From: Leifsonia sp. Leaf264
GTDB lineage: Bacteria > Actinomycetota > Actinomycetes > Actinomycetales > Microbacteriaceae
Direction: 5' to 3'
NCBI RefSeq assembly: GCF_001422325.1
Contig: NZ_LMMR01000005.1
Location: forward strand, 558,001-622,000
Length of the DNA stretch: 64,000 nt
A program made the translations under genes and the position numbers. The stretch's first letter is position 1, and each line of letters starts with the position of its first letter. Positions 149-63,869 of this stretch are shown here, piece after piece. The notes beneath the pieces are model-generated. The model was not told where the DNA came from. It was given only the letters and a program-made list of their open reading frames with translations, and searched no databases.

Positions 149-166
149 GCCACATGGCTTAGGTGC
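149..166 (+). promoter_or_regulatory. Start-associated motif, abuts start (18 nt)
   Basis: GCCACATGGCTTAGGTGC ends exactly at the GTG start of the gene at 167. Putative leaderless promoter. Confidence 0.65.
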
Positions 167-937
167 GTGACTGTCAAATATGACTCAGTGAAGCTCCCGA
201 ACCCCCGCATCCCCTTTTCACCTGTTCCCTGGGGTGTAGCTACTCGGGTTCTTCTGGCTTTGACGACGGTCCTCGCCTGGGTGGTCGTCTCTCACAACGA
301 GCTTGTCGGTGGTTCCGCCAACGTCCTGCTGCTGCTCTTGGTGCTGGGAACGGCGTTCACTTCAGCTGTGTGGCTAGCCGGATCCGCATGGGGTCGGGCG
401 GAACGAGGTCTGATGAGCGCGCTCGGGGAGGGGCTCCTGTACGCCGCAATGGCGATCGTCCCGGGATACACAGCCGCATACGGCGGTGTGGGCTCCTACC
501 CGATCTTCTTGGTCGCCGTGCTGGTGTTCGGGGCAGATACGCTCCGAATCGCGCAGCTGACGCCCGCCTGGAAGGACAGCCAGGCGCGAAGCACCGTCAT
601 GCTACTCCGAAGCGCAGCGGCCGCTCTGACCGTAGCCGCCGTCGCAGTCATCTACTGGGCGTTCTTCGTCCTCCCAGTCACACACCCCACCTCCGGCGCT
701 GACGACCTGAACGTTGCTGTCGCCGGCGCCTACTGGGCGTCCATCGCCGTGGTTGCGTGTGTCAACGGGTGGCACTGGGCGAGATACGCTCGGAAGCTGT
801 CCGGGCTCCCCGGTGAGGACCGCCGTGCCGCAGTCAGTGCGCGGTTCGCATGGATGATCGTGGTCAGCTGGAATGCGGCCTTCGGGTCGACGTTCCTGTT
901 CCTCATCCCGATGCTCTACATGGTTCAAACCAGCTAG
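167..937 (+). CDS. Multi-pass membrane protein of unknown function
   Basis: 256 residues with about seven hydrophobic helices (near residues 27-43, 50-72, 88-105, 110-125, 148-170, 180-198 and 228-252) joined by short loops with basic residues (for example around WARYARKLSG), so an integral cytoplasmic-membrane protein. The GTG at 167 is chosen because the 18-base motif ends exactly there and no Shine-Dalgarno sequence is present, implying a leaderless message. It converges on the gene at 949. No catalytic or transporter signature was recognised. Confidence 0.75.
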   Translation: MTVKYDSVKLPNPRIPFSPVPWGVATRVLLALTTVLAWVVVSHNELVGGSANVLLLLLVLGTAFTSAVWLAGSAWGRAERGLMSALGEGLLYAAMAIVPGYTAAYGGVGSYPIFLVAVLVFGADTLRIAQLTPAWKDSQARSTVMLLRSAAAALTVAAVAVIYWAFFVLPVTHPTSGADDLNVAVAGAYWASIAVVACVNGWHWARYARKLSGLPGEDRRAAVSARFAWMIVVSWNAAFGSTFLFLIPMLYMVQTS

Positions 938-948
938 CGGCCGCGTCG

Positions 949-1644
949 CTAGCTGACGTTCACCACGATCTGACCGTGAGCGCCGGGGGTCCCGAAGGGG
1001 TTCCCTGCCTGCGGCACACGGGTGAGCGCGTCGTTGACCTGCCGTTCGACGTCCTGGAACTTCGACTTGAAGGCGAGGTCGTTGATGTCCAACCAGCCTC
1101 GGTCTCGGTCGTGGATGTCGTCGAGGACGTAGCCGGTCTCTTCCTTCCATCCGTGGACGTCGGTTGCTGCGCGGAGCTGGAACGCGTCAGCGTTCGGGTA
1201 TGCCGCCCTGATGTGCGCGGCTGCGAGCCGGCGGATCTTCGAGTTGTAGTTGGCGGTGGCCCGGTCCAGCTCAGCCTTTGCGATGTCAGAGTCAGCGGTC
1301 GCAGTTTCGACCAGGCCAACCGGCGCCTGCTCGACGATGTTCGTGTAGTCGAACGGTTTCGTCGGGTCGGGCACCACTTTGTACCCGAGGCCAGCTGAGC
1401 CGACGGCGAGGTCGAACATGGCGACGAAGTGACGGTTGGCAAGGAAGTTGTCGTTCCCTGGGGCTGCTGCACGGAACGCCGTCCACGCGTCGAACTGGGC
1501 GATGACCGCGGCGTGCTGCGGGTTGTCGAGGTCCAGTATGCCGGCGCCCGGCGACAGCTCGAGGTCAGCCCCGGACTGAGGTTTCGGGAGGGACCCGGCG
1601 AGCTTCCCGGAGGTCTTCTGGATGTGGCGGCTGTCAGCGGTCAT
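949..1644 (-). CDS. Hypothetical protein, 231 aa
   Basis: Soluble protein without signal peptide or membrane segment; composition Ala/Asp rich, with a probable helical middle (TADSDIAKAELDRATANYN). The start ATG at 1644 lies 18 bases after the motif; a longer reading frame exists upstream but would read through the motif. It is divergent from the gene at 1693, the two starts sharing a perfect inverted repeat. No family recognised. Confidence 0.7.
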   Translation of the reverse strand: MTADSRHIQKTSGKLAGSLPKPQSGADLELSPGAGILDLDNPQHAAVIAQFDAWTAFRAAAPGNDNFLANRHFVAMFDLAVGSAGLGYKVVPDPTKPFDYTNIVEQAPVGLVETATADSDIAKAELDRATANYNSKIRRLAAAHIRAAYPNADAFQLRAATDVHGWKEETGYVLDDIHDRDRGWLDINDLAFKSKFQDVERQVNDALTRVPQAGNPFGTPGAHGQIVVNVS

Positions 1645-1662
1645 GCTCCGTAGGTGTGTGGC
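1645..1662 (-). promoter_or_regulatory. Start-associated motif, abuts start (18 nt)
   Basis: GCCACACACCTACGGAGC on the minus strand ends at ATG 1644. Confidence 0.7.
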
Positions 1663-1686
1663 TGCACCGACCCAGCCACACACCTA
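1651..1686. repeat. Perfect 14-bp inverted repeat made of two opposed motifs
   Basis: TAGGTGTGTGGCTG (1651-1664) and its exact complement CAGCCACACACCTA (1673-1686) are separated by 8 bases. Each arm is the motif core of one of the divergent genes at 1644 (-) and 1693 (+). Confidence 0.9.
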
Positions 1687-1692
1687 GAAGCC
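1675..1692 (+). promoter_or_regulatory. Start-associated motif, abuts start (18 nt)
   Basis: GCCACACACCTAGAAGCC ends at ATG 1693. Confidence 0.7.
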
Positions 1693-2858: not shown

Positions 2859-2876
2859 GCCACATGCCCATAGAGC
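2859..2876 (+). promoter_or_regulatory. Start-associated motif, abuts start (18 nt)
   Basis: GCCACATGCCCATAGAGC ends at ATG 2877. Confidence 0.7.
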
Positions 2877-4951: not shown

Positions 4952-6997
4952 CTACTTGGTGACGGTCACTGCGAGGTCCTGGGCGGCCGGAGCTGCCTTC
5001 GAGTTCACCGTCAGTCCGAGGGTGCGGGACTGGCCGGCAGCAAGCGTGGTTCCGTAGTCGAAACCGGTGCAGGTGATGACCTTGCTGGCGAGGGTGCAGG
5101 TCATGCCCCATGCCGAGCTGATGCTGGTGGCGTTCGGCTCGTCGAAGGACACCTTCCACGTCTTCGCTGCGGCCTTCGCCGTGACGGTGACGTTCGCGGT
5201 GTACCCGCCAACCCACTTCGACGGGACGGTGAGCTTGCCCGTCACATCACCGGACGGCACCGGAGTCGGTGTCGGGGTGGGTGTCGGGGTGGGTGTAGGC
5301 GTCGGAGCCGGGGTGGTCGGCTTCGGGTCTGGGGTGACCTCGGTGGCCTGACCGTTCACCGCGAGAGCCTGCGCCTTCGGGGCGACAGCCGAGTCGACCG
5401 TCAGGCCGAGAACTGCTGTCTGTCCGGCGGCGAGCTTCGCTGCGTAGTCGTTGCCTTCGCAGGTGATGACCGGGGATGCGATCGTGCACTTCATGCCCCA
5501 GCTGTTCGCGATTCGGGTTGCCGTGGCGTCCGTCCAGCTGACCTTCCACGAAGGCAGAGCCTTACCTGCGGTGACAGTCACGTTGCCGGTGTACCCGCCG
5601 ATCCAGGAGTTCGGGATGGTGAGCTTCGCGGTTGCGTCGGTCGAACCGGTGGGCGGCGTCGTAGGCGGCGTGGTCGGGTCGGTCGTCGGCGGTGTCGTCG
5701 GCGGTGTCGTCGGCGGCGTGGTCGGGTCCGTCGTCGTCGGCGGGGTGGTCGTTGCCGGTCCACCGTTCTGGTAGTTCGGGACACCGAGCAGCGGTGCGAG
5801 AGCGGCGAGCTTCGCAGCCTCCGGGGTGCGCCAGTCGGTGCCGACCAGTCCGCCGGTGTCGCCGGAGTTCGGGTTGTACGACCAGAACGCCCAGCTGATG
5901 CCGTTCGTCTTCATGTAGGTGGCGAGGGTGTCGAGCCACTTCTTGTCGGAGTCCGTCTTGTAGGACGTGCCGAACTCACCGACCCAGACGGGGGCGATGT
6001 TCTCCTTGACGAGGTAGCCCCAGTTCTTGTCCCACAGTGCGGGCAGGTTCGCCGGGTACTTCGGGTCGGAGAACCACTTCTGGTTGTACACCGACGCGGG
6101 GTAGTCGTGAGGCGAGTAGACGACCTGGTTCTTGACGTTGAGGTTGACGAGCTTCGTCTTGGCGTCCTTCAGGCCACCTCCCCACCAGGTCCAGTCGTCG
6201 CCGGACTGCGCTTCGACACCTTCGACGATGATGAGCGCCTTCGGGTTGACAGCCTGGATGGCGTTGCCGGCCTTCTCAGCGGCGAGCTTCCAGTCGGTCT
6301 TCACGTTGCCGGTGCCCCATGTTGCGGCGCCGTGCGGCTCGTTGTGCAGGTCGAAGCCGATGACGTTGGTGTCGTTCTTGTAGCGGTTGGCGAGCATCGT
6401 CCAGTCGGAGATCCACTTCGTCTCCGGGTACGCGCCGGTGTACCAGAGCTCAGACTGTCCGCCGTAGTCGGGGCGGTGACGGTCGAGGATGACGTTCAGC
6501 CCGTTCGCCTTCGCGGAGGCGACGACGGCGTCCATGATCTGGATGGGGGTCTTGCCGACGAGGCCCGGGTTGGCGTACTCGTTCAGGGAGTCGGGCCGGG
6601 CGGTGGTCAGGCACTGGTTGGCGTACGGGAGGCGGATGGTGTTCATCCCGAACGACTTGATCTGCTTCACGGTCTGGTCGAGGTTCAGCGTCCACAGGCC
6701 GTGAGGCATGCAGTTGCTGGTCTCCAGGCCGAACCAGGACGCGGCCTTGATCGTGTAGGTGGCGCCGGAGTCGGTCTTGATCTTCGAACCGTCGGTGTGC
6801 AGGAAGCCGGGGAGTGCGGTCTGGTCGACGGTGTCAGCGGCGTTCGCTGCGACGGCGGACAGGCTGGCACCGGTCATGCCGGCGACGGCGAGAGCGACTG
6901 CAGCGGCGATGCCGGCGATGGTGCGCCTGTGGCGGGCCCGTCCGGTTCGGATGTTCGGGCTATCTGGGGCGCTCTCGCGCTTTCGGGAGGTGAGCAT
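4952..6997 (-). CDS. Secreted GH5 cellulase with two CBM2-type modules
   Basis: 681 residues; hydrolyses beta-1,4-glucan outside the cell. Signal peptide in residues 1-46 (RHRRTIAGIAAAVALAVAGM... ANA). The GH5 barrel spans about 50-390, with FDLHNEPHG (acid/base Glu near residue 219) and VWVGEFGTS (nucleophile Glu near 341). A TTP-rich linker is followed by a family 2 cellulose-binding-like module (starting near TAKLTIPNSWIGGYTGNVTV), a PT linker and a second similar module (GKLTVPSKWVGGYTANVTVT) ending the protein. Start ATG 6997 abuts the motif, excluding the ATG 33 bases upstream. Plasmid-borne GH5 cellulases with CBM2 are known virulence factors in Clavibacter (celA on pCM1); relation here is only by analogy. 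Confidence 0.9.
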   Translation of the reverse strand: MLTSRKRESAPDSPNIRTGRARHRRTIAGIAAAVALAVAGMTGASLSAVAANAADTVDQTALPGFLHTDGSKIKTDSGATYTIKAASWFGLETSNCMPHGLWTLNLDQTVKQIKSFGMNTIRLPYANQCLTTARPDSLNEYANPGLVGKTPIQIMDAVVASAKANGLNVILDRHRPDYGGQSELWYTGAYPETKWISDWTMLANRYKNDTNVIGFDLHNEPHGAATWGTGNVKTDWKLAAEKAGNAIQAVNPKALIIVEGVEAQSGDDWTWWGGGLKDAKTKLVNLNVKNQVVYSPHDYPASVYNQKWFSDPKYPANLPALWDKNWGYLVKENIAPVWVGEFGTSYKTDSDKKWLDTLATYMKTNGISWAFWSYNPNSGDTGGLVGTDWRTPEAAKLAALAPLLGVPNYQNGGPATTTPPTTTDPTTPPTTPPTTPPTTDPTTPPTTPPTGSTDATAKLTIPNSWIGGYTGNVTVTAGKALPSWKVSWTDATATRIANSWGMKCTIASPVITCEGNDYAAKLAAGQTAVLGLTVDSAVAPKAQALAVNGQATEVTPDPKPTTPAPTPTPTPTPTPTPTPVPSGDVTGKLTVPSKWVGGYTANVTVTAKAAAKTWKVSFDEPNATSISSAWGMTCTLASKVITCTGFDYGTTLAAGQSRTLGLTVNSKAAPAAQDLAVTVTK

Positions 6998-7015
6998 ACT
7001 GTGGTGCCATGTGGC
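6998..7015 (-). promoter_or_regulatory. Start-associated motif, abuts start (18 nt)
   Basis: GCCACATGGCACCACAGT ends at ATG 6997. Confidence 0.7.
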
Positions 7016-7080
7016 GAAGGGGTGGTTCATCGGGTGGTGTTGCTTTCTGATGGTTCGGGTTCGGCTGGGGGCAGCCGAGT

Positions 7081-7833
7081 TCAGATCTGGTCGTTCAGGA
7101 GTCTCTGCAGTTCTTCCTCCACCTCCTCAGCGTGTCGGTCGGCGATGGTGGCGCGTGCCTGGTCGCGAAGCTTCGCGAGGCGGGTGGCGTCACGTTTCGC
7201 GGTGACGGCGGCGACGGAGTCGTCGTAAGCGTCAGCCAGGACCCATCCGGAACGAATCCCGTAGGGGAAGGTGACATAGGTGGGGTCGGTCGACTTGTCA
7301 CGGAACGTGCCTTCCCGGACAGGACGGAGGACACCGTCGTCGACGAGCTCGGCGAGGCGCTTCTTCACATGGCCGGCCATGAGGTGCTCCGCAGCCCAAC
7401 CTTCGGGGGTCTTCCCACCGAACTCTGCTGACTGACGGCCGATCGACGGGTCAAACCCGATCAGTGCGGCGGTGAGGACCTTGAAGCTGACTGCCCGGGG
7501 TCCGGCGCTGTAACTGGTATCGGCAGACAGGTCTGCGATGACGTCGCGGACAGCTTCCTGGGACGGCGACAGTTTCGGTTCGATGAGATCCGGCAGCCCG
7601 CTCCCGTCGAAGATGACGGACTTGGTGTGGCTGTTGACGTGGACCCCGCAGACGATGACGTCGACGGTGTTGTAGACGGCGCTGGGAGCCTCCCCGTACT
7701 TCTCCGTGCGGCGTTCCGTCTTCACGTATTCGACAGCGCCGACGATGGTGCGTCCGTAGGGGAAGACGACACGGAGACGGTCGCCCTCTCTGATCCGGGC
7801 GAACATCTCCTCGGAGAACGGTTCTGAAGTCAT
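7081..7833 (-). CDS. Hypothetical protein, 250 aa
   Basis: Soluble protein; the N-terminal part (REGDRLRVVFPYGRTIVGAV) looks like a small beta barrel, the middle (VKKRLAELVDDGVLRPV) resembles a winged-helix-like segment, and the C-terminus (TIADRHAEEVEEELQRLL) is a charged helix. Unlike many neighbours it has a 17-base leader with AGAGGAAGGAA before ATG 7833, following a motif block. A nucleic-acid-binding role is possible but only suggested by the helix pattern. Confidence 0.7.
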   Translation of the reverse strand: MTSEPFSEEMFARIREGDRLRVVFPYGRTIVGAVEYVKTERRTEKYGEAPSAVYNTVDVIVCGVHVNSHTKSVIFDGSGLPDLIEPKLSPSQEAVRDVIADLSADTSYSAGPRAVSFKVLTAALIGFDPSIGRQSAEFGGKTPEGWAAEHLMAGHVKKRLAELVDDGVLRPVREGTFRDKSTDPTYVTFPYGIRSGWVLADAYDDSVAAVTAKRDATRLAKLRDQARATIADRHAEEVEEELQRLLNDQI

Positions 7834-7850
7834 GGGGTTCCTTCCTCTTC

Positions 7851-7868
7851 AGAACCCTCATGTGCGGC
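7851..7868 (-). promoter_or_regulatory. Start-associated motif with leader
   Basis: GCCGCACATGAGGGTTCT is followed at once by GAA and a Shine-Dalgarno sequence; start codon 17 bases further (7833). Confidence 0.65.
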
Positions 7869-7871
7869 ATC

Positions 7872-7889
7872 GCCACATTCCTGCTGGAC
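7872..7889 (+). promoter_or_regulatory. Start-associated motif, abuts start (18 nt)
   Basis: GCCACATTCCTGCTGGAC ends at GTG 7890; divergent from the block at 7851-7868 with 3 bases between. Confidence 0.55.
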
Positions 7890-8324
7890 GTGAACCCGCC
7901 CGACGTCCTCGACCATGCGACCGCTCATCTGACGCTCCGGGCCGCTCAGGTCACCGCTGTGCTTCTCGTTGCGGCGGATGTGGTCCAGGTTGCCGCGTCG
8001 CGGATGGGCGCGGAGGATGCTGCCGGGTATGCGCTGATCGGCTCGAACCTGCTGATCGGTTGCGTCATCCTCGCCACCTGCTTGTCCATGCATGCGCTGC
8101 TCCGACCTGGCGGCCGATGGGCGCAGGCGGCATGGTCGGCGGTCCTGACAGCGGCGATGGTCGTGTTCCTGGCCCACAGCTACCTCGGCCCGTGGGGGTT
8201 GCTGATGGCAGCCCTGGTGGCAGCTGCAGCGTTCACCTGCGGATGGTCTGTTCGCCACATGCCTGACAGATGGCTTCGCCGCCCTGACCCCGGAAGAACT
8301 GATGGCATCGAACAGGAAATCTGA
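7890..8324 (+). CDS. Small membrane protein, 144 aa
   Basis: About four hydrophobic helices (VTAVLLVAADVVQVA, LIGSNLLIGCVILATC, ...AVLTAAMVVFLAHSYLG, LLMAALVAAAAFTCGW). The GTG at 7890 is preferred over the in-frame ATG at 7860 because 7860 lies inside the opposite gene's motif while 7890 abuts its own. It overlaps the next gene by 23 bases, implying co-transcription. Function unknown. Confidence 0.65.
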   Translation: MNPPDVLDHATAHLTLRAAQVTAVLLVAADVVQVAASRMGAEDAAGYALIGSNLLIGCVILATCLSMHALLRPGGRWAQAAWSAVLTAAMVVFLAHSYLGPWGLLMAALVAAAAFTCGWSVRHMPDRWLRRPDPGRTDGIEQEI

Positions 8325-8955
8325 ACGTCTCCTCGCTGAGGCGTCATCGTTCGAACGTGACGCCCGCCGCCATCTCGCGGTCGCGCAGGAGGAATGGAAG
8401 GACGCAGGCCGCTCCTGGCTGTCGGTTGCCGCTCCGTCGTACCGGTACTTCATCTCCGGTGCGCTGATGCTCGCCGGAGGTGCCATCTGGGATGCTGTCA
8501 GCTACCACACCGACTGGTGGCGCTCCCCCGGCCTCTGGGCGATGGTGATCGGCGGCCTGGTCGCAGCGTTCGGGATCGCATCCGTGCAGAACGCCGTCGA
8601 CCGCCAAGCCGGCGCGAAAGGACGAGCCCGCGCCCATGAAGCCAAAGCTGAAGAGGCGACGAGGTTGTCGTTGCAGCTGCGCAGCCAGTCCTCGGATGCA
8701 GCCTCCGCTGAGCTCAGGAAAGCAGCTCTCCCGGCAGCGTCAGCGGCGATCGTCGCGAACATCGGCCGCAACACCCGCGACCTGACGAAGAACAGCGACG
8801 ACGCAGAACTGTGGGCGATCATCACCAGCCATAAGGATGAGACGAAGCTGATGGAGCTCGCGTCCGCCCACGAGTGGGACTCGAAGACGCTGAAAAGAGT
8901 TCGAGCGCTGAATGAGTCATGGCGCACCACCATGCGCGGCGAACTGCGCGACTAG
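8302..8955 (+). CDS. Two-helix membrane protein with long coiled cytoplasmic tail
   Basis: 217 residues. An amphipathic N-terminus (ERLLAEASSFERDARRHLAVA) precedes two membrane helices (YFISGALMLAGGAIWDAV and LWAMVIGGLVAAFGIASV), then an Ala/Arg/Glu-rich helical tail. Starts inside the end of the upstream membrane protein gene, so probably translated from the same message. The gene ends at a bidirectional terminator. No family recognised. Confidence 0.7.
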   Translation: MASNRKSERLLAEASSFERDARRHLAVAQEEWKDAGRSWLSVAAPSYRYFISGALMLAGGAIWDAVSYHTDWWRSPGLWAMVIGGLVAAFGIASVQNAVDRQAGAKGRARAHEAKAEEATRLSLQLRSQSSDAASAELRKAALPAASAAIVANIGRNTRDLTKNSDDAELWAIITSHKDETKLMELASAHEWDSKTLKRVRALNESWRTTMRGELRD

Positions 8956-8965
8956 GACATACAGA

Positions 8966-8997
8966 AGAAGGGCCGAAGGTGATCCTCCGGCCCTTCT
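8966..8997. terminator. Bidirectional hairpin between convergent genes
   Basis: AGAAGGGCCG / CGGCCCTTCT stem, extended inward by AGG/CCT after one mismatch; lies between the gene ending at 8955 (+) and that ending at 9011 (-). Confidence 0.7.
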
Positions 8998-9010
8998 GTC
9001 ATGTCACAGC

Positions 9011-9310
9011 TCAGACGTACTCGAACACCTTCTCGGTGACGAGGGCGTCCTCGATGAACGACGGTGCGAACACCTGCCCGTCCGGGATCGGCTCCAGCAG
9101 GTAGGAACGCCCGGCAGCGTCAGCGCAGTTGGCGCATTCCATCGCCCGGAGCACCGACCCGGCCGACTTCGCCCGGGTGGACTGCCCGGGAAGCTCCATC
9201 AGCTCCAGGAACGCGAAGCCGGCGTAGATCGGTGAGCACGACTGGCTCCCGTTGGAGGTGCATTCCACCCGGTTCCGGGCGACGCGGCGACGTGCGTGGA
9301 CGGCGTCCAT
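9011..9310 (-). CDS. Small cysteine-containing protein, 99 aa
   Basis: Soluble. Carries two Cys clusters, VECTSNGSQSCSP and MECANCADAAG, that could bind a metal ion. Translation starts at ATG 9310 after a perfect AGGAGG sited over the stop codon of the upstream gene, so it is the second gene of that operon. Function not recognised. Confidence 0.65.
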   Translation of the reverse strand: MDAVHARRRVARNRVECTSNGSQSCSPIYAGFAFLELMELPGQSTRAKSAGSVLRAMECANCADAAGRSYLLEPIPDGQVFAPSFIEDALVTEKVFEYV

Positions 9311-9319
9311 CGGCTCCTC

Positions 9320-10429: not shown

Positions 10430-10480
10430 GGTTTCGTATCTCCTCTGAGGGGTCGGGGTGCCGCCTCTGGACAAAGGCTC

Positions 10481-10498
10481 AACACGTCCATGTGCGGA
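10481..10498 (-). promoter_or_regulatory. Start-associated motif with leader
   Basis: TCCGCACATGGACGTGTT then GAG; 51-base leader to ATG 10429. A CAAAACG element lies 14-15 bases upstream. Confidence 0.6.
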
Positions 10499-10536
10499 TC
10501 TGGGACGTTTTGGTTGAGCTCGCGGCGGCGGGTTTC

Positions 10537-10554
10537 AGAGGGAGGACATGTGGC
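10537..10554 (-). promoter_or_regulatory. Second motif of a tandem pair
   Basis: GCCACATGTCCTCCCTCT then GAA; same direction, 56 bases upstream of the block at 10481, just after the stop of the gene at 10569. Confidence 0.55.
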
Positions 10555-10568
10555 GACCCGCGAGATGC

Positions 10569-10764
10569 CTAGAGGCCGCTGACGATGAGGAGGATGCCGC
10601 CGGCTACGACGAGGAACCCGAGGAGCGGCCCGGCGATGCTCCATGCCTTGTTGCTGGAGCCGCGGTCGGCTGCCATGCGTTCCATGGCGCGGGCGCTCAC
10701 CTGCGGCGGGAGGCCGGCGGCTTCCAAGTCCTTGTGGGCGTTGATCAGGGCGATGCGTGCGGTG

Positions 10765-10772
<8 letters not shown>
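10569..10772 (-). CDS. Small single-helix membrane protein, 67 aa
   Basis: Cytoplasmic helical N-terminus and one C-terminal membrane helix (GPLLGFLVVAGGILLIVSGL). Its ATG overlaps the stop of the upstream gene by 8 bases (ATGACTGA), so the two are translationally coupled and may act together in the membrane. Confidence 0.7.
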
Positions 10773-11235
<463 letters not shown>

Positions 11236-11253
11236 GATCTGTGGGCATGTGGC
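11236..11253 (-). promoter_or_regulatory. Start-associated motif, abuts start (18 nt)
   Basis: GCCACATGCCCACAGATC ends at ATG 11235. Confidence 0.7.
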
Positions 11254-11263
11254 GACCACACGA

Positions 11264-11298
11264 AAGCGCCGCACCTCCGGTTGGGCGGTGCGGCGCTT
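11264..11298 (-). terminator. Hairpin after the long exonuclease gene
   Basis: AAGCGCCGCAC / GTGCGGCGCTT, perfect 11-bp stem, 10 bases past the stop at 11308. Confidence 0.75.
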
Positions 11299-11307
11299 CA
11301 CGGGGCG

Positions 11308-12903: not shown

Positions 12904-12922
12904 GCGGACCTAAGTGTGCGGC
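12904..12922 (-). promoter_or_regulatory. Start-associated motif, abuts start (19 nt)
   Basis: GCCGCACACTTAGGTCCGC ends at ATG 12903. Confidence 0.65.
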
Positions 12923-12951
12923 CCGGCCGCATCTCCGAACGTCGGCGTGTC

Positions 12952-13725: not shown

Positions 13726-13743
13726 GAACCCGACATGTGCGGA
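13726..13743 (-). promoter_or_regulatory. Start-associated motif, abuts start (18 nt)
   Basis: TCCGCACATGTCGGGTTC ends at ATG 13725; AAAAAG-type element 14 bases upstream. Confidence 0.65.
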
Positions 13744-13780
13744 TTCTGGACTTTTTACGGCGGGTGCCCTGTCGGCCTGG

Positions 13781-13966: not shown

Positions 13967-13999
13967 GGGTGATCACTCTTCCACTCGGCGTCGTTTCTG

Positions 14000-14971: not shown

Positions 14972-14989
14972 GCCACCATCATGTGCGGA
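14972..14989 (-). promoter_or_regulatory. Start-associated motif, abuts start (18 nt)
   Basis: TCCGCACATGATGGTGGC ends at ATG 14971; CAAGACA 14 bases upstream. Confidence 0.7.
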
Positions 14990-17114: not shown

Positions 17115-17132
17115 GCCGCCATCATGTGCGGC
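17115..17132 (-). promoter_or_regulatory. Start-associated motif, abuts start (18 nt)
   Basis: GCCGCACATGATGGCGGC ends at ATG 17114; TGAAACC 14 bases upstream. Confidence 0.7.
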
Positions 17133-20140: not shown

Positions 20141-20158
20141 TCCGCGCATGTAGGTGGC
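20141..20158 (+). promoter_or_regulatory. Start-associated motif, abuts start (18 nt)
   Basis: TCCGCGCATGTAGGTGGC ends at ATG 20159; CAGGACC 14 bases upstream. Confidence 0.7.
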
Positions 20159-29922: not shown

Positions 29923-29940
29923 GCAATCTAGGTGTGTGGC
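29923..29940 (-). promoter_or_regulatory. Start-associated motif, abuts start (18 nt)
   Basis: GCCACACACCTAGATTGC ends at ATG 29922. Confidence 0.7.
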
Positions 29941-32231: not shown

Positions 32232-32250
32232 AGAGACGTAGGTGTGTGGC
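32232..32250 (-). promoter_or_regulatory. Start-associated motif with leader (19 nt form)
   Basis: GCCACACACCTACGTCTCT then GAC; 22-base leader to ATG 32209. Confidence 0.65.
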
Positions 32251-33612: not shown

Positions 33613-33631
33613 GAAGACGTAGGTGTGTGGC
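33613..33631 (-). promoter_or_regulatory. Start-associated motif, abuts start (19 nt)
   Basis: GCCACACACCTACGTCTTC ends at ATG 33612. Confidence 0.7.
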
Positions 33632-38095: not shown

Positions 38096-38113
38096 GCGAT
38101 GTAGGTGTGTGGC
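38096..38113 (-). promoter_or_regulatory. Start-associated motif, abuts start (18 nt)
   Basis: GCCACACACCTACATCGC ends at ATG 38095. Confidence 0.7.
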
Positions 38114-41029: not shown

Positions 41030-41047
41030 ACGCCGTAGGTGTGTGGC
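41030..41047 (-). promoter_or_regulatory. Start-associated motif, abuts start (18 nt)
   Basis: GCCACACACCTACGGCGT ends at ATG 41029. Confidence 0.7.
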
Positions 41048-41911: not shown

Positions 41912-41929
41912 GCCCTGAAGGCATGTGGC
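41912..41929 (-). promoter_or_regulatory. Start-associated motif, abuts start (18 nt)
   Basis: GCCACATGCCTTCAGGGC ends at GTG 41911. Confidence 0.7.
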
Positions 41930-43854: not shown

Positions 43855-43872
43855 GTCACCTTCATGTGCGGC
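43855..43872 (-). promoter_or_regulatory. Start-associated motif with leader
   Basis: GCCGCACATGAAGGTGAC then GAG; 18-base leader to ATG 43836. Confidence 0.65.
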
Positions 43873-51221: not shown

Positions 51222-51239
51222 GCCACGGTCATGTGCGGA
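51222..51239 (-). promoter_or_regulatory. Start-associated motif, abuts start (18 nt)
   Basis: TCCGCACATGACCGTGGC ends at ATG 51221. Confidence 0.7.
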
Positions 51240-51293: not shown

Positions 51294-54200
51294 TTACTGC
51301 TGGTTCTTGGTCTTCCACTGGTCGAACGCCTGAGCGTCAGCCAGGTTGGTCGACGCGGCCCGCTGCTGCGCGAACACCGGCTGGAGCGTCGGCCCGGCCG
51401 GGGCCGGAGCCTGCTGCGGTGCCTGCTGCGGGGCGGCGCCGGGAACTGCTGCGCCCGGAGCGGGTGCTGCAGGTGCGCCACCCGGGTTGGTGCGCTGCGT
51501 TGCAGCCTTCGCCACGTGCTTCTCGTACTCGGTCTGGCCTTGGACCTTGTCCGAGACTTCCTTCGCCTTCAGGAGCCGTTCTCGGATCTCGGTTTCCTGT
51601 GTCGCGTAGGTGTCGGCCTTCGCGCTGTCCGCCAGGGTCATCTTGTCGGACACCTTCTTGTGCAGCTTCACTGCACTGTAGGCAGCGATTCCGACGGGAC
51701 CTGCGATGACGGCCGCTGTTGCCGGCAGGCCGTGCTTCAGGGCCCAACCGGTGCCCTTGGCTGCTTCCTTCGTCACGGAGCCGAGCGCCTGCTTGGAGAA
51801 CTTCACCGGGTGCTTCGCGAGGTCCCGGAGGTCCTCCCCTGCCTGGTCCTTCCAGTTCCACTTCGGGTCGCGGAGCTTCTCGCGGCCTTCGGGTGTCGCT
51901 GCTTCCTGCGGTGCGGTGAGCACCGACGCGGCGGAGTCGCCGTCGTGGAGCAAGTCGTCGAACGGCTTGGCCTCCTTCTCGTCCGGGGCTTCCGGTGCGA
52001 AGCTGCCGTCGATGGTGGAGTCGCGGCCGAACTCGGTCGACGCTGCAGCCATGTCTGCGGCTGCTGACGGGTTCGTCGGTCCGGCATCGTTCGCGGCGGC
52101 GGTGCCTGCAGCTGCACCCGCAGCGGCGGCAGCCGCGGCGGCCGCGGCGGTGTCGTCCTTGCCGAAGAGCTCCTCCCGGATGCGTGCTTCCATGGCGGTG
52201 GTGTCGCCGGTCTGGTCGAACAGCTTCCGTTCCTTCTTCGCGGCGTTCGCCTCGTCCTTGTTCTTCTTCTCCAGGGCCTTCGTCTCAGCCTTGGTGCGGG
52301 GCAGGTCGCCGGAGCCGGAACGGTTGCCGGCAGCACCGGATGCTCCGTTTCCGCCGGGGCCGGAGGTGATGCCTCGGCCGGTCGCCAGGGGGTTGCCGTT
52401 CTCGTCGACGCCGCCCTTGTTGCGGTTCAGGCCGAGGGTGTCGCGAGCCTTTCCGGTCGCCTTGTTCCAGGTGCGGTTCTGGACCGAGTTCACCAGTGCG
52501 CCGCCGGCTGCTGCAGCTCCGCCGCCCCACGCCATCATTCCGGCTGGGGTCATCGGTGACGGCTTCTTCAGGACGTTCTTGAACAGCATGTGGAGGCCGA
52601 CCATGGCGAAGATCGGTGCCATGCCCACCCAGACGATGCTGATCAGGGTGCCTGGTGCGGCGAGGACCAGCCCCATGTCGATCATCGACTGGGTCATCCA
52701 GGTGACGAGGACGAAGATGAGGGTGCTGGCGGAGGCGAGGACGGTGAAGCCGACGACCTGCTTCAGCATGCTGGCGAGCTTCGCTCCGGGGCCCTCGCGG
52801 GAGAACATGGAGGCGATGAGGGTGATCATCATGGTCATGACTGTGAGGACGGCCATGATCTTGGCGAACATGATGATGCCGGACAGGGCAACGCCGAGGA
52901 TCAGCGTGACGACGATCGTGGACAGGTAGGACATCAGGATGAGTCCGAGGGATGCGAACCCGTCGCCGGAGTTGACGCTGTTGACGAAGTTCGTCACCTC
53001 AGGGTCGTTGCTGTACTCGTTGATCTCGGCGGATCCGCCTTCGCCGACGCCGATGCGGAATCCGCTCCAGTAGTCGTCTTCGCCGTCAGCGCCGTCCATG
53101 CCGTTGCCGGACACCTGGGTGTCGTGCTGCCACCAGGTCTTGCAGTACTGGGCGTCCATCCAGGGCTTGCTGGTGTCTCCGAAGCGGTACTTGAACGCGT
53201 CCTCGATGTACCAGCTGTCGCCGTCCCAGTTGCAGGCGGCCCAGGCGATCATCGACTTGGCTTCGTCGGCGTTGTTGTACTGGTGCCATGCGCGGGACTT
53301 GTCGCCCGTGTTGTTTCCGGCTTCTGCTGAGCTGGCGATACCGGGGACGCCGTCGGTGGTCAGGTTGAACTGTGTGGTGGTGCTGACACCGATGAGCTGG
53401 TCGGCGCGGTGGCACCAGACCTTGTTGGCGTAGGGGTTGCCGGCGCCGAACTGGACGGACTTCCAGGTTTCCAGGGCGGTGGTCTGCCAGAGGGAGCTGA
53501 TCGATTCGAGGGTGGCTGAGGAGCCGTTGGATTTGAACGCGGACTGCTGGGCGGCGGCGATGTTCGCTTCGTACCTGTCGCAGGAGAGCTGCCCGCCGAG
53601 TTTGCCTTCGACCTCCGCGGTGCCGGTGGACGGGTCGGAGAAGTTGATGGCGTTCAGGGAGCTGAGGGCGGCGTTCATGCCGTCGTCGAGGAAGCCGGTG
53701 GTGGTTTTCAGCAGCCAGGCCGGCGATCCGGTGCCGGGTGTGAAGCCGGCGCCGGTGCCGTGGCTGGCTGTAGCTCCGGTTCCGAGCATGCCGATGAAGG
53801 CTACGGTGCCGACGACGCCGAGCATCCGCTTCCACAGGCGGGAGGAGTCACGGCCGCGGGCTTGGTTCCAGAAGATGGCGCCGAGCAGGGCGATCGCCAC
53901 GGCCACGAAGATGAGCGGCTGCGACCAGACGGCGTTCTTCAGCTTCTTCGTTCCCTCGTCGATCTTCTCCCCGAGAGCGTCGATCGGCTGCATGTCTGCA
54001 GCGAAGTCGGACAGCATCCCGGTGAGTCCCCAGAGGAGGCTGAGCCCGGAGAGACACATCTCCTTCATGGACTTCTGGACGTTGAGACCGGCGGACTTGA
54101 AGATGTCGTCCGGCTCGCGGACGTACAGTTTCGACGTGATGTCGGACCAACGGTTCAGCCCGATCCACTCGCTCGTCTTCGGGTCGTCGCTGCCGGACGG

Positions 54201-54410
54201 CTTGACCGACGGCGACGGGTCGCCGAGGGCTGCCGACGCCTGGACTGACGTGGAAGCGAGCTCGACCTGAGCTGACGCCACAGACTGGGTGATCTCGGAC
54301 TGGTGGCTGATGACTGCGGCGTTTGCGGCGGTCGGTGCGAAGACGATGGACAGCGCGATGAACGCCCCGATGAGGGTGGCCAGTCGAGTGCGTCTGGTGG
54401 GGGTGTTCAT
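51294..54410 (-). CDS. VirB6/TrbL-like T4SS membrane protein, 1038 aa
   Basis: Signal peptide (GAFIALSIVFAPTAANA), exported segment, two helices (LIFVAVAIALLGAIFWNQA; LGVVGTVAFIGMLGTGATA), a Cys/Trp-rich extracellular loop, then a cluster of about five helices (LGLILMSYLSTIVVTLILGV, IMAVLTVMTMMITLIASMF, GFTVLASASTLIFVLVTWMT, LISIVWVGMAPIFAMVGLHM) and a 400-residue Ala/Lys/Glu-rich cytoplasmic tail with coiled coils and a PAPGAAVPGAAPQQAPQQ linker. This layout fits the channel protein of actinobacterial conjugation systems; the call rests on topology and neighbours. ATG 54410 follows AGGA, 12 bases after the PrgI-like gene. Confidence 0.7.
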   Translation of the reverse strand: MNTPTRRTRLATLIGAFIALSIVFAPTAANAAVISHQSEITQSVASAQVELASTSVQASAALGDPSPSVKPSGSDDPKTSEWIGLNRWSDITSKLYVREPDDIFKSAGLNVQKSMKEMCLSGLSLLWGLTGMLSDFAADMQPIDALGEKIDEGTKKLKNAVWSQPLIFVAVAIALLGAIFWNQARGRDSSRLWKRMLGVVGTVAFIGMLGTGATASHGTGAGFTPGTGSPAWLLKTTTGFLDDGMNAALSSLNAINFSDPSTGTAEVEGKLGGQLSCDRYEANIAAAQQSAFKSNGSSATLESISSLWQTTALETWKSVQFGAGNPYANKVWCHRADQLIGVSTTTQFNLTTDGVPGIASSAEAGNNTGDKSRAWHQYNNADEAKSMIAWAACNWDGDSWYIEDAFKYRFGDTSKPWMDAQYCKTWWQHDTQVSGNGMDGADGEDDYWSGFRIGVGEGGSAEINEYSNDPEVTNFVNSVNSGDGFASLGLILMSYLSTIVVTLILGVALSGIIMFAKIMAVLTVMTMMITLIASMFSREGPGAKLASMLKQVVGFTVLASASTLIFVLVTWMTQSMIDMGLVLAAPGTLISIVWVGMAPIFAMVGLHMLFKNVLKKPSPMTPAGMMAWGGGAAAAGGALVNSVQNRTWNKATGKARDTLGLNRNKGGVDENGNPLATGRGITSGPGGNGASGAAGNRSGSGDLPRTKAETKALEKKNKDEANAAKKERKLFDQTGDTTAMEARIREELFGKDDTAAAAAAAAAAGAAAGTAAANDAGPTNPSAAADMAAASTEFGRDSTIDGSFAPEAPDEKEAKPFDDLLHDGDSAASVLTAPQEAATPEGREKLRDPKWNWKDQAGEDLRDLAKHPVKFSKQALGSVTKEAAKGTGWALKHGLPATAAVIAGPVGIAAYSAVKLHKKVSDKMTLADSAKADTYATQETEIRERLLKAKEVSDKVQGQTEYEKHVAKAATQRTNPGGAPAAPAPGAAVPGAAPQQAPQQAPAPAGPTLQPVFAQQRAASTNLADAQAFDQWKTKNQQ

Positions 54411-55446: not shown

Positions 55447-56664
55447 TTAGACGAGACGGCGCGTGCGCTTCTCGGCTCCTTCAGTCGCCAGGTGGAGTGC
55501 GGACTCCCACAGCTCGTGGGCGTAGTCAGCGCGAGCGCGGACCATCTCCACGAAGTCCTCCTTGGCGGACTGGGTGATGTTTCCGAACGGGGCGAACAGG
55601 GCGTCCGAACCGTCGGTCTTGTAGCCGAACATGAAGTCGCTGCAGGCGTCGAGGACGTCCTCCTGGTTGCGGAGGGTGGCGGCGACCTTGCGGCCTTCCT
55701 TCTCGGTGAAGAGGTCGGAGACCGGTGCGGGTGCGTCGAACGCGACGGCGACAGCCGGGTAGAAGTTCCGTCGGGTCTGGGCGAGGCTGAGGTTCCCGAC
55801 TTCGCGGGCTTCCAGCATCTGGTCTGCGACGGAGCCCTCGCCCACGTAGGTGGTGCCGCGGCCGTAGCCGGAGTCCTCCATGACCTCGTCAGCGAACGTC
55901 TCCGAGTACGCGTCGAGGCTGGTGTTGCCTCCGGCGAGGTACTTCTCGAACCCCTTCTCCGGGCGGTTGCGGGGGTTGAAGTTGGAGCCGACACGCATCT
56001 CCTTGGCGAGCAGCGACACCTCACGCTTGGTGTAGCTCACGCCGACACGCTCAGCTTCGTCGATGGCCTGCTTCAGCAGACCGATCGCCTTCTTCGTCTC
56101 GTGGCGGACGCCTTCGTTGATGATGCGCGACGGGATCTTGTTCCCGACGGACTGGATGACCTTCTTGTTGACGACCTTGCCGACGTGGACACGGTCGTAC
56201 ATCTCGGCGACGAGGGTGCCGGCGGCTTCCGTCATCTGCTCGTACGTCATCGGGGTGCGGCTGTAGATGCCGGCCATGACCTTGTTGGCTTCGTGGAGCA
56301 GCTGGCTTGCGCCTTCGCGGACGATCTTGTTGTCGGAGGAGCGGATCATCGCGGTGAAGTTGGCGTAGCCTTCGTCGTCGATGTCGTAGTCGTCCGACTC
56401 GTCGTCCTCGTCCTCAGCGACGTTCTCAGCGTCGACGTCGTTCAGGTCCTCGTCGGCGTCCGGCTCGGTGAGGTGCTCGTAGGTGGCGAGGAGCTCGTCG
56501 AGGTTCTCCGGCTCGACGATGTCGGTTCCGAGGACCATGCCGTCGACGCGGTAGGTCTTCTCGCCGTAGCGTCCCTTCTCGCCCAGACCCTGCTTGCGGG
56601 GCTGGACCGTCTGGACTGCAACGAGCTTCGGAGCGGCGGTCGTGGAGGTGGTGTTTTTCGTCAT
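55447..56664 (-). CDS. Acidic hypothetical protein, 405 aa
   Basis: Soluble. A very acidic stretch (LNDVDAENVAEDEDDESDDY) follows a short basic N-terminus; the rest is helical (HETKKAIGLLKQAIDEAERV). No family recognised. ATG 56664 abuts the motif. It lies between the T4SS-like operon and the signal peptidase, so it may belong to the transfer functions. Confidence 0.65.
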   Translation of the reverse strand: MTKNTTSTTAAPKLVAVQTVQPRKQGLGEKGRYGEKTYRVDGMVLGTDIVEPENLDELLATYEHLTEPDADEDLNDVDAENVAEDEDDESDDYDIDDEGYANFTAMIRSSDNKIVREGASQLLHEANKVMAGIYSRTPMTYEQMTEAAGTLVAEMYDRVHVGKVVNKKVIQSVGNKIPSRIINEGVRHETKKAIGLLKQAIDEAERVGVSYTKREVSLLAKEMRVGSNFNPRNRPEKGFEKYLAGGNTSLDAYSETFADEVMEDSGYGRGTTYVGEGSVADQMLEAREVGNLSLAQTRRNFYPAVAVAFDAPAPVSDLFTEKEGRKVAATLRNQEDVLDACSDFMFGYKTDGSDALFAPFGNITQSAKEDFVEMVRARADYAHELWESALHLATEGAEKRTRRLV

Positions 56665-56682
56665 GAACCGTAGGTGTGCGGC
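56665..56682 (-). promoter_or_regulatory. Start-associated motif, abuts start (18 nt)
   Basis: GCCGCACACCTACGGTTC ends at ATG 56664. Confidence 0.7.
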
Positions 56683-58475: not shown

Positions 58476-58476
58476 T

Positions 58477-59034: not shown

Positions 59035-59052
59035 GAGTTCTAGGTGTGTGGC
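59035..59052 (-). promoter_or_regulatory. Start-associated motif, abuts start (18 nt)
   Basis: GCCACACACCTAGAACTC ends at ATG 59034. Confidence 0.7.
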
Positions 59053-60860: not shown

Positions 60861-60879
60861 GACGTTCTAGGTGTGTGGC
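60861..60879 (-). promoter_or_regulatory. Start-associated motif, abuts start (19 nt)
   Basis: GCCACACACCTAGAACGTC ends at ATG 60860. Confidence 0.7.
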
Positions 60880-62351: not shown

Positions 62352-62370
62352 GGGTTCTACGTGTGTGGGG
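62352..62370 (-). promoter_or_regulatory. Start-associated motif variant, abuts start
   Basis: CCCCACACACGTAGAACCC ends at ATG 62351. Confidence 0.6.
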
Positions 62371-62374
62371 CGTG

Positions 62375-63850
62375 TCACACCTGGTAGGTGTCCTCGGACC
62401 ACTGCAGAGGCGTTCCGGCTCCGCGGCCGAACCGGGCCGGCTCCTCAGCTTCCAGCTGCGCCTGACGGGCCCGGAACTTCTCCCCCGCCTTCCACAGGTC
62501 GCGGGTTCGGATGAACCGGTGCGCCTGATCGATCGGGATCCCGGCGCGCTGCACGATCCGAAGCTGGTCCGGGGTGCCGCCGGCCGCGGCGAACGATGCA
62601 AGACCGGCCGCCGCCGGGCCGTACAGGCTGAACCCGTGGATGCTGTTGGCGCGGCGGCCGTCGAGCAGAGCGGCGTGCCAAGGGGTGAGATCGTCGATGC
62701 CGGAAGCGGCGATGGTGTTCCAGTGCTCAGGCTGGTCCCAGCCGAACTCCTTGTAGTGGGCGGCGCGGCGGGCGGTGGTGCCGGCAGCGGCAGCCAATCG
62801 GGTGATCTTCCCGATCCGCTCCACGTCGGCGTTGTACCCGTACTCGGGGACGCCGGCGAGCTCACGCCATCCCTTCAGCTCGTCACCAGAGACGATCCCG
62901 GCAGCGGCGAGTCTCAGGAGATCCTTTGCGCTCAGGCTCTTCTCCGCGCCGCGGAGGCTTCGCATCTGCTTCGGGTCCATGCCTTCGCTCGACAGCCACG
63001 ACATGTCAGACGGGTCGAAGTTCGGGCCGTACGCGACAACGACCTCAGGTGAGACAGCACGGAGCGAGTGGCGGATGTTGTGTTCTAGGAATGCTTCCAG
63101 CCGCGGCGTCTTCAGTTTGGACTTTGAGGCGTACTCACGGATCGCCTCCGGTGTGACACCCCATGAGCTGTACTGGGCGATGAACGAGCCAGAAACGCCG
63201 GTCCCGGCGAAGGACTTCACCAGGTGAGGATCGAGCCCCTTGTCGACCACAGCCTTCAGGTCACGGTACGTCCGCACCGTCTCGCGCAGCTCCTTGTGTT
63301 CCTTCAACGCCAGAACCCAGCCTTGCACCTGCAGTTGGGTGGCGTTCGAGTAGGCGAGCAACGCCTCCGGCTGAGCGGGGACTCCGAGCGCGATGTAGTC
63401 CTCCACCTTCTCTGCGGTCATCCCAGCAAACAGCAGCTTCTCGGTGCTGTTCCGGTACCGGCCGCCGTCCAGCTCAGCCAACGCCAGCATCTCCTCGACG
63501 GTGTGACCGGAACCCCACAAGCGGATCAGGTTCGGGAGCCCGAAGTTGTCCCGCCGGCCGATGGTCGCCACCCGGTAGTCGGCGCCGAACTCAGCAGGGA
63601 TCCCGCGGCGCTCGAAAGCCTCCAGGTCACGATCAGCGATCTCACGCGCAGCATGCTCGGTGTACGAGCCCAGACTCATGAGGGTCTGGAAGATCCGCTC
63701 GCCCTGCTCCGACGTGACAGTCGGCATGGCGTCCAGCGGTCCGAACTCTGCAGCATGCAACGCCTCAGCGGCCGGGTCCAAGGCGTATTGGCCGGACGCG
63801 ACGAAGATCAGCTGGTTCTTGTTGTTGCGGCGGGTGACTTTGTTGGGCAT
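62375..63850 (-). CDS. Large helical repeat protein, 491 aa (paralogue of 60891)
   Basis: Same architecture as the neighbour: LLFAGMTAEKVEDYIALGVP, SSWGVTPEAIREYASKSKLK, then GTTARRAAHYKEFGWDQPEH, GGTPDQLRIVQRAGIPIDQA and LWKAGEKFRAR. The N-terminus adds KVTRRNNKNQLIFVASGQYA. ATG 63850 is 19 bases from the motif start; an inner ATG at the MPTVTSEQ site would match the paralogue's beginning but has no motif. Confidence 0.65.
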   Translation of the reverse strand: MPNKVTRRNNKNQLIFVASGQYALDPAAEALHAAEFGPLDAMPTVTSEQGERIFQTLMSLGSYTEHAAREIADRDLEAFERRGIPAEFGADYRVATIGRRDNFGLPNLIRLWGSGHTVEEMLALAELDGGRYRNSTEKLLFAGMTAEKVEDYIALGVPAQPEALLAYSNATQLQVQGWVLALKEHKELRETVRTYRDLKAVVDKGLDPHLVKSFAGTGVSGSFIAQYSSWGVTPEAIREYASKSKLKTPRLEAFLEHNIRHSLRAVSPEVVVAYGPNFDPSDMSWLSSEGMDPKQMRSLRGAEKSLSAKDLLRLAAAGIVSGDELKGWRELAGVPEYGYNADVERIGKITRLAAAAGTTARRAAHYKEFGWDQPEHWNTIAASGIDDLTPWHAALLDGRRANSIHGFSLYGPAAAGLASFAAAGGTPDQLRIVQRAGIPIDQAHRFIRTRDLWKAGEKFRARQAQLEAEEPARFGRGAGTPLQWSEDTYQV

Positions 63851-63869
63851 GCACCCATAAGTGTGTGGC
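63851..63869 (-). promoter_or_regulatory. Start-associated motif, abuts start (19 nt)
   Basis: GCCACACACTTATGGGTGC ends at ATG 63850. Confidence 0.65.

Follow-up and report, generated by a model that had tools for sequence, protein, structure and literature searches.

Introduction

The plasmid pBS32 of Bacillus subtilis encodes its own sigma factor, SigN (ZpdN), which is described as having its own consensus with -35 and -10 elements, a regulon on its own plasmid and autoactivation, and as being induced after DNA damage, upon which cell death follows (PMC6751061). Here we describe a dispersed 18-base block that marks gene starts on contig C5 (NZ_LMMR01000005.1; 701,121 bases) of Leifsonia sp. 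Leaf264, and that was first annotated in a stretch of 64,000 nucleotides, bases 558001-622000 of C5, referred to below as the window. The likeness to SigN, as that account presents it, would lie in a plasmid sigma regulon, here extended over a large replicon and served by a predicted factor. Unlike the SigN promoters described there, the C5 block is G+C-rich, adjoins the presumed +1, often stands without a -35 element and varies among related plasmids, and on a replicon of 701 kb it precedes about half of the first genes.

Dispersed sites of other kinds are described in mycobacteriophages. The Start-Associated Sequences (SAS) of cluster K (GGGATAGGAGCCC) contain a Shine-Dalgarno core, typically lie 3-7 bp before the start codon and have a proposed role in translation (PMC3203893). 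Like the SAS of that description, the C5 block is asymmetric, dispersed and near the starts of unrelated genes; unlike them, it shows no AGGAG in its sequence logos, and it either touches the start codon or is placed well 5' of genes that mostly bear a Shine-Dalgarno sequence, so that the initial annotation was right to set it apart from the SAS. The same source describes the stoperators of cluster A as dispersed 13-bp sites with a role in transcription (PMC3203893). The C5 block differs from these in being fixed to gene starts. Stoperators are bound by the phage repressor and are not known to have a fixed place at gene starts. Among actinobacterial plasmids, the Bifidobacterium breve megaplasmid pMP7017 is reported to carry a tRNA array and a tmRNA gene, and to have mapped promoters of the host consensus, TTGACA-n17-TATAAT (PMC10832533). 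C5 likewise is actinobacterial and has a tRNA array and tmRNA; its proposed promoter code contrasts with the one reported for pMP7017.

The promoters of phages T7, T3 and SP6 consist of one block at +1, are used replicon-wide by a single-subunit RNA polymerase and have diverged from one another at fixed geometry; the C5 blocks resemble them in their proposed co-drift and in geometry. The late promoters of phage T4 are of the -10 type without a -35 element and are read by the divergent sigma factor gp55 on host polymerase; they are A+T-rich and need a sliding clamp. The C5 blocks would share with them the -10 type, often without a -35 element, and a proposed divergent sigma on host polymerase, and differ in being G+C-rich and plasmid-borne. 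Among the titles and abstracts returned by searches of open-licence PMC papers, none describes this motif or the promoters of these plasmids.

Results

The block extends over the whole of C5

The dispersed, start-associated 18-base block is confirmed as real, and it extends over all of C5, beyond positions 149-63869 of the window where it had been annotated. The consensus of the initial annotation, allowing at most one mismatch, matches the window 32 times; shuffled versions give a mean of 8.67 and a maximum of 16. The annotation had also suggested a scan beyond the window. Position weight matrices (PWMs) for the three classes of block described below give 399 matches above 12 bits on C5 and 32 in reversed C5; 49 of the matches lie in the window, in keeping with the 50 or so copies annotated there. 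Overall, C5 holds roughly 370-400 copies. Strict class patterns find 277 sites on C5 and 4 in the reversed sequence, namely 63 of class 1 (KCCRCAYACCTA), 93 of class 2 (KCCACATGNCT) and 121 of class 3 (KCCGC[A/G]CATGNNGG). Within the window the same patterns find 36 sites, 19 of them with ATG or GTG at offset 18 or 19: many blocks do end at a start codon, as annotated, but the figure of about 27 comes from a looser list. The last 121 bases of C5 lie outside all counts.

The block is nearly absent from the rest of the host genome (4.54 Mb in 11 contigs) and from the other genomes sampled in the family (397). The core pattern KCCRCAYACCTAS matches the genome 53 times, and 52 of these matches fall on C5 (the reversed pattern gives 4); the version lengthened by one base matches 35 times in the Leaf264 genome and never more than twice in any of the 397 others. 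In 102,843 bases of other host contigs the PWMs match 6 times (2 reversed), whereas C5 has 57 matches per 100 kb. An unseeded motif search of 582 C5 upstream regions agrees: the block ranked first, in 296 regions, with starts commonest at -18 (94) and then at -19 (18). Behind it came the start codon with coding periodicity and the Shine-Dalgarno sequence GRAGGA, and six rounds of search on C5 returned no motif like a standard actinobacterial promoter. Upstream regions with a gap below 15 bases were excluded from this search and from those of related plasmids described below.

Position, operon structure and leaders point to a core promoter

Gene prediction gave 797 genes covering 86% of C5. Although only 14% of C5 is non-coding, 243 of the 277 strict sites lie mostly outside predicted coding sequences, which bears out the annotated placement between genes. 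That the block always faces a gene proved too strong a statement, since at 38 of the 277 sites the next predicted start on the same strand is more than 300 bases away. Genes inside operons (at most 15 bases behind a same-strand gene) have a block within 120 bases in 1 of 212 cases, and all other genes in 282 of 585. The rule that operon genes lack the block therefore holds; the annotated example at 8302 was wrong, because a strict class 2 site at 8254..8271 (plus strand) lies 48 bases 5' of gene 8302-8955. Likewise, the block is widely present, but nearer one per two than one per transcription unit (the same 282 of 585 genes not tightly behind another). The rule also appears in two related plasmids, where a block precedes 11 of 178 inner and 137 of 488 other genes (pS16), and 4 of 90 inner and 108 of 338 other genes (pACHL01).

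The genes behind the block fall into two kinds. On C5, a Shine-Dalgarno-like sequence is present at 5 of 76 sites where the predicted start lies at offset 18-19, compared with 77 of 122 where it lies at 32-120 (p 1e-16). The split between leaderless and leadered genes recurs in pS16 (12/84 vs 42/63) and in pACHL01 (3/53 vs 28/48). A pyrimidine-purine step occupies bases 18-19 in 135 of the 169 sites that have no start codon at either offset, 18 or 19, a bias that is as expected of a transcription start and that falls on bases left free by the class patterns. From these observed features of position, specificity and leader structure, and from their parallel in the two relatives, we infer that transcription starts at base 19, hereafter +1, and that the block is very probably a core promoter. 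A block upstream of +1, yielding leaderless or leadered mRNA, fits the intergenic place, the operon rule, the Shine-Dalgarno split and the pyrimidine-purine step together. The annotated proposal of a promoter or regulatory code for a whole element is thus supported by the enrichment across C5, by the near-absence inside operons, in the rest of the host genome and in the 397 other genomes, and by the blocks of relatives.

Three classes share one frame

The sub-forms annotated as variants of one motif correspond to at least three classes, a number that had not been foreseen. They share a frame in which KCC occupies -18 to -16 and C stands at -14, both being set by the search patterns. T occurs at -8, likewise set in classes 1 and 2 and reaching 60% in class 3, and positions -1 and +1, which no pattern fixes, are mostly Y and R. 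Class 1 has no upstream element and class 2 has only TYC just 5' of the block, so that neither has a detectable -35 element; class 3 has a second, weak element, CAGWW, at -32 to -28. The related plasmids vary here as well, with a clear CGGKGAG at -38 to -32 on pACHL01 and mainly a preferred C at -33 on pS16. The leaderless share differs among the classes (38/63, 14/93 and 24/121 for classes 1, 2 and 3; p 2e-10), and the classes are spread unevenly along C5 (p 8e-8). These differences would fit different regulation or different readers.

C5 and its giant-plasmid relatives

The closest plasmid relatives of the C5 replicative polymerase DnaE are encoded on the Curtobacterium plasmids pS16, pCPAA3 and D40 (546-608 kb; 49.5-50.8% identity), followed by five Arthrobacter-type plasmids (375-440 kb; 43.5-46.6%). 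The Curtobacterium plasmid pCPAA3 is reported to be a giant plasmid that carries genes for polymerase III (PMC8929003). C5 has 42 tRNA genes plus tmRNA. A minus-strand array at bases 5,894-22,352 contains 39 of these 43 genes, namely 38 tRNA genes and the tmRNA gene, and the other four tRNA genes lie elsewhere on C5. There are 38 tRNA/tmRNA genes on pS16 and 42 on pACHL01, both sets including tmRNA. Since its DnaE relatives and its tRNA/tmRNA sets are those of giant plasmids, C5 is most likely a giant plasmid too. A Micrococcales giant-plasmid grouping made here, defined by related DnaE, both sigma-like families described below and many tRNA genes with tmRNA, takes in C5, pS16 and pACHL01, the three replicons on which the tRNA genes were scored. 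The G+C content of C5 is about 65%; eight sampled stretches of other contigs have 68-70% in six cases, and 62% and 54% in the other two.

A phage identity was considered for C5 and rejected, as dnaE groups it with plasmids and its conserved genes include FtsK/SpoIIIE- and T2SSE-type ATPases. Among six large C5 proteins scanned, some have weak terminase-type and stronger Hoc/Ig-type PHROG matches. The DnaE search also returned three related viral contigs, which are distant and were not used further.

Related plasmids carry other letters at the same place

The C5 patterns do not occur in the 43-kb parts searched of pS16, D40 and pACHL01, except for one KCCGCACATG in pACHL01. Unseeded searches of two whole plasmids nevertheless found a block at the same distance: KCCGCACACATnnnnGSC before ATG in 129 of 337 regions of pACHL01, and CCGCGCATAGRnnnRGC before ATG in 206 of 487 regions of pS16, each commonest at -18. 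Position -11 is A in 98-100% of the PWM-selected sites of these two plasmids. Minor second forms are TCTACGCATG on pACHL01 (26; reversed 0) and CGCCGCAT on pS16 (135; reversed 50). At 14 bits the C5 PWMs match 368 times on C5 (reversed 13), 12 on pS16 (15) and 10 on pACHL01 (2); the pS16 PWM matches 136 times on pS16 (2), 5 on C5 (2) and 32 on pACHL01 (4); and the pACHL01 PWM matches 188 times on pACHL01 (0), 5 on C5 (4) and 33 on pS16 (2). The code of C5 is thus well apart, and those of pS16 and pACHL01 cross-match somewhat.

Orthologues tend to have a block in common. C5 and pS16 form 163 reciprocal best pairs; both genes have a block in 26, only the C5 gene in 34, only the pS16 gene in 11 and neither in 92 (p 2.7e-6); of the 26 pairs, 7 are leaderless in both. 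For 92 pairs of C5 and pACHL01 the numbers are 15, 21, 12 and 44 (p 0.033). Many promoters would have changed letters together while place and spacing were kept, which argues for a trans-acting reader on each replicon. The initial annotation did not anticipate that every examined member of a giant-plasmid family would have its own version of the signal, a finding which suggests that each may run a partly private gene-switching system.

Two sigma-like families as candidate readers

Genes shared by C5, pS16 and pACHL01, in a comparison that also took in parts of D40, include two for sigma-like proteins, g738 and g709. In tblastn searches of 72,556 plasmid records, each family occurs only on the same eight plasmids, which are those heading the DnaE list; the C5 g709 sequence alone, as query, found 7 of the 8. 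Among 398 genomes of the family, this one included, g709-like genes occur in 9 and g738-like genes in 4. Scans of viral contigs for g709 found none.

The g738 gene (C5:648134-649015, as aligned) lies about 10 kb from dnaE and has homologues on pS16, D40 and pACHL01; three further paralogues, two of them short, occur on pS16, and C5 and pACHL01 have a single copy. The best match of its profile in the PDB is the sigma-28 factor FliA (E 0.0012), collinear over regions 2-3, followed by SigA (E 0.07). Sigma70_r3 is the top weak Pfam match in three of four members and the second in the fourth, with 17-22.5 bits in all four, below the cut-off of 25.3 bits. The family may work like a sigma factor, and we do not class it as one. 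In the g709 alignment, stretches like DDIAQET, RSLDA and SLSQRQVTKHR are seen in many members, and all five PDB matches of the profile up to E 10 are sigma factors, weakly matched (best E 0.014). Region 2 reaches 17.3 and 16.8 bits in two of the four members scanned, below the cut-off of 24, and the C5 and pS16 members have no sigma Pfam match. The g709 gene itself (405 aa; window 55447..56664, minus strand) is preceded by a class 1 block at 56665..56682 that ends at its ATG (56664) and scores 24.1 bits.

Other candidates were rejected. The FliA-like g109 was dismissed as a general reader, as it lies beside flagellin on C5 and inside a flagellar cluster on pS16, and as a region 2 search of pACHL01 returned only the g709 homologue and a helicase-sigma fusion. 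The plasmid-borne flagellar genes are found at C5:102730-104560 and at pS16 352622-364448. The helicase-sigma fusion was discarded as a family-wide reader, since none of the region 2 matches on C5 corresponds to it. The fusion (990 aa; pACHL01 377249-380221, L054:12220-15192) is of unusual architecture, joining a ResIII/DEAD-type helicase and a helicase-associated domain to sigma-70 regions 2, 3 and 4 (1.2 weak). The 1046-aa protein g735, suspected from its position, was rejected as a sigma factor, and g414 was rejected as a polymerase, since it carries a Walker-type motif and is better read as a putative conjugation ATPase. Two ECF-like (extracytoplasmic function-like) proteins, at C5:356507-357169 and 475959-476735, match sigma region 4 and have no region 2 match at the threshold used. 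On pACHL01, besides the g709 homologue itself, 41 otherwise unlike predicted proteins match the g709 profile weakly, apparently through an N-terminal tag of the type RVPxGxPTGGQFAxTxHAE.

Discussion

A proposed promoter set with its own reader

We propose, with a probability of about 0.6, that the blocks act as promoters throughout the replicon and that their reader is a divergent sigma-like factor, encoded by the plasmid and working with host RNA polymerase. Each block would be a promoter core from which transcription starts at base 19, sometimes 20. In many genes transcription would begin on the start codon itself, at its A or G, and give a leaderless mRNA; other genes would have a leader, mostly with a Shine-Dalgarno sequence. 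The information would reside in -18 to -1, for the most part in an extended -10 element rich in G+C, comprising CCRC (-17 to -14) and the bases after it. The reader would most likely be a plasmid-encoded, divergent sigma-70-like protein of the g738 and/or g709 family, joined to the host core polymerase. The sole match in the genome to the RNA polymerase beta family PF00562 is on contig C6, with none on C5. Sigma function is a prediction for both families, and so is any pairing of a factor with a class, the classes perhaps being read by different factors. Because one protein would read hundreds of sites, promoters and reader would drift together across plasmid lineages, and each lineage would come to have another consensus at the same distance. 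The wider picture, a giant-plasmid family with private, orthogonal transcription, in which a new and highly diverged sigma-like branch serves hundreds of leaderless-capable extended -10 promoters, with co-drift and a code for each lineage, is one that we offer only tentatively.

Explanations in which the block itself is no promoter fare poorly. The chance that the block is an artefact of composition or repeats is negligible, being contradicted by the reversed-sequence, shuffle, host-contig and other-genome controls, and no point was found in its favour. A signal for translation initiation or acting in mRNA, as proposed for the mycobacteriophage SAS, would account for the fixed distance to many start codons; yet the block has no Shine-Dalgarno core, the pyrimidine-purine step at bases 18-19 persists where no start codon follows, and the leadered genes would stay unexplained, their blocks lying 32-120 bases upstream with a separate Shine-Dalgarno-like sequence in 77 of 122. 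We regard this as highly improbable, and only slightly more credit is due to the idea that the blocks are operators of one repressor, acting across the replicon in the manner of stoperators and overlapping ordinary promoters. Asymmetric, dispersed and oriented sites would suit a repressor; the exact register to the presumed start site and the scarcity of blocks at inner-operon genes (1 of 212) would not, nor would the failure of six search rounds on C5 to reveal a standard-like actinobacterial promoter that such operators could overlap.

Other readers of a promoter must also be considered. Host polymerase with a host sigma could be retargeted by a plasmid-encoded activator or sigma-binding protein, the block then being partly an activator site. 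Phage T4 provides an example of such retargeting in AsiA/MotA. The PF00562 match on C6 alone and the lack of a -35 element in C5 classes 1 and 2 would agree with this, as would the WhiB-type proteins on pS16 and D40; on C5 and pACHL01, however, no WhiB match was found at E 1, and the core pattern has just 1 of its 53 matches on the other contigs of the host. Moreover, the region from -10 up to +1 is normally occupied by sigma and not by an activator, and that is the region which the block spans. Retargeting is therefore unlikely in our estimate, and about half as much weight goes to an unrecognised RNA polymerase of the plasmid's own, for which the block would end at +1 like a T7-type promoter. 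A single, replicon-specific block at +1 with fixed geometry does recall the T7, T3 and SP6 promoters, and several large proteins are unannotated, for example that of window 43955-48079 (1374 aa). Against such a polymerase stand the confinement of the PF00562 match to C6 and the absence of the DFDGD motif among the 797 predicted C5 proteins. A Pfam scan of seven conserved C5 proteins, which left out g612 (829 aa), also speaks against it: four are nuclease-, FtsK-, T2SSE- or helicase-like and three have no match, one of these three having a Walker-type motif. The single-subunit polymerase family PF00940 gave no match, a result that is uninformative because the control matched in none of 14 genomes.

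Several observations weigh against a plasmid-encoded sigma-like reader, or against the two families in that role. As to the blocks, C5 class 2 has G at -11 and not A; the operon rule is looser in the relatives (11 of 178 and 4 of 90 inner genes with a block); and the sharing of blocks by orthologues is partly confounded by common operon position. As to the proteins, sigma homology is weak, as none of the four g709 and four g738 members scanned reaches a Pfam cut-off. Up to E 10 the g738 profile has 15 matches in the PDB, namely 8 sigma factors, 6 eIF2-alpha proteins and 1 hypothetical protein, and a weaker g738-like match (30 bits) lies on host contig C1 (G000:C1:451576-452034; L171, L182), the L182 stretch entering the analysis of blocks only within the PWM control. 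The hhalign comparison of g709 with a mixed sigma set gave a probability of 12%, an uninformative result as several members of the set are apparently misframed, and the AlphaFold model of the Arthrobacter terrae homologue of g709 is all helical and of low confidence (mean pLDDT, the predicted local distance difference test score, 51.7). No block precedes g738, dnaE or the sigma genes g364, 356507 and 475959 on C5, which encodes FliA-like, ECF and two ECF-like factors besides; g709, for its part, lies in a transfer-type cluster and could serve that operon alone.

Co-occurrence of the families with a block in other genomes is uneven as well. Genome G262 has both families, and on two contigs chosen for carrying these genes 20 of the 45 regions show a pS16-type block, which lies at -18/-19 in 12 cases; it is clear on contig C20, but C19 alone shows it only by PWM (12 matches, 1 reversed) and not de novo. 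Contig C7 of G232 carries both families and has no clear block (14 regions; 4 matches, 2 reversed). Loci with g709 only were examined in five of six genomes: G389, G308 and G239 are without a block, and some pS16-type matches are present in G089 (8, 0 reversed) and G279 (15, 5 reversed). G350 (a g709-like gene with a stop) and G078 (a g738-like gene with a stop) were excluded from the block search. As this co-occurrence is mixed, we do not claim g709 alone as the reader. At single loci, two divergent pS16-type blocks lie near the g709 homologue of G089, a single-contig genome of another genus (G089:C1 near 2466818-2466899, L162), and a C5 class 2-like sequence stands directly before the ATG of the g709 homologue of G389 (just 5' of G389:C1:825344, L147), with no surrounding set of blocks.

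If the proposal of a plasmid-encoded reader is correct, giant plasmids of common soil- and plant-associated actinobacteria hold their own promoter code beside tRNAs, tmRNA and a replicative polymerase, an independence of the host otherwise known mainly from phages. They would then offer natural sets of orthogonal promoters and factors for actinobacterial RNA polymerase and a test case for the joint change of a whole promoter set and its reader. The blocks would also be a simple means to locate transcription starts, to correct start codons and to recognise relatives of the family in assemblies.

Blocks and neighbouring genes in the window

Most class 1 blocks listed for the window lie directly before a predicted leaderless start. 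Two stand back to back, at 1645..1662 (minus strand; ATG 1644) and 1675..1692 (plus strand; ATG 1693), such that the -35 position of each falls within the other. Further class 1 blocks, all on the minus strand, are found at 29923..29940 (ATG 29922), 38096..38113 (ATG 38095), 41030..41047 (ATG 41029) and 59035..59052 (ATG 59034), and in a 19-base form at 33613..33631 (ATG 33612) and 60861..60879 (ATG 60860). The coupled gene behind ATG 41029, 38895-39956, has no block of its own listed. A leadered class 1 block at 32233..32250 (minus strand) stands before gene 31514-32209, which has a Shine-Dalgarno sequence of the AAAGGAAAGG type.

The class 2 block at 41912..41929 (minus strand) adjoins the leaderless start GTG 41911. 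Class 2-like blocks lie at 149..166 (plus strand), with GTG at 167 immediately next, at 2859..2876 (plus strand; leaderless start ATG 2877) and at 11236..11253 (minus strand), with ATG 11235 immediately next, and two class 2-type blocks are placed back to back at 35463-35520 (35480 minus, 35503 plus) between divergent genes. At 1654-1693 and 10765-11259 the automatic starts are located 5' of the block-linked ATGs 1693 and 11235, and the blocks suggest corrected, leaderless starts for both.

In class 3, a block at 20141..20158 (plus strand) precedes the leaderless start ATG 20159, and a leadered one at 43855..43872 (minus strand) precedes gene 42940-43836, which has the Shine-Dalgarno sequence GAAGGAG. 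Class 3-type blocks with leaderless starts occupy 14972..14989 (ATG 14971), 17115..17132 (ATG 17114) and 51222..51239 (ATG 51221), all on the minus strand; a class 3-like block at 13726..13743 (minus strand; leaderless start ATG 13725) belongs to a protein with an exonuclease domain. Downstream of g709, the conserved cluster includes g706 (51294..54410, minus strand), a 1038-aa protein that is predicted to be a membrane component of a transfer apparatus.

Two observations concern the gene content of these plasmids. A 102-base NDM-19 prediction in PLSDB on D40 (locus L053:26286-26387) is very likely spurious at such a length. The window encodes a cellulase (GH5) with a cellulose-binding domain at 4952-7030, and D40 encodes a GH6 protein.

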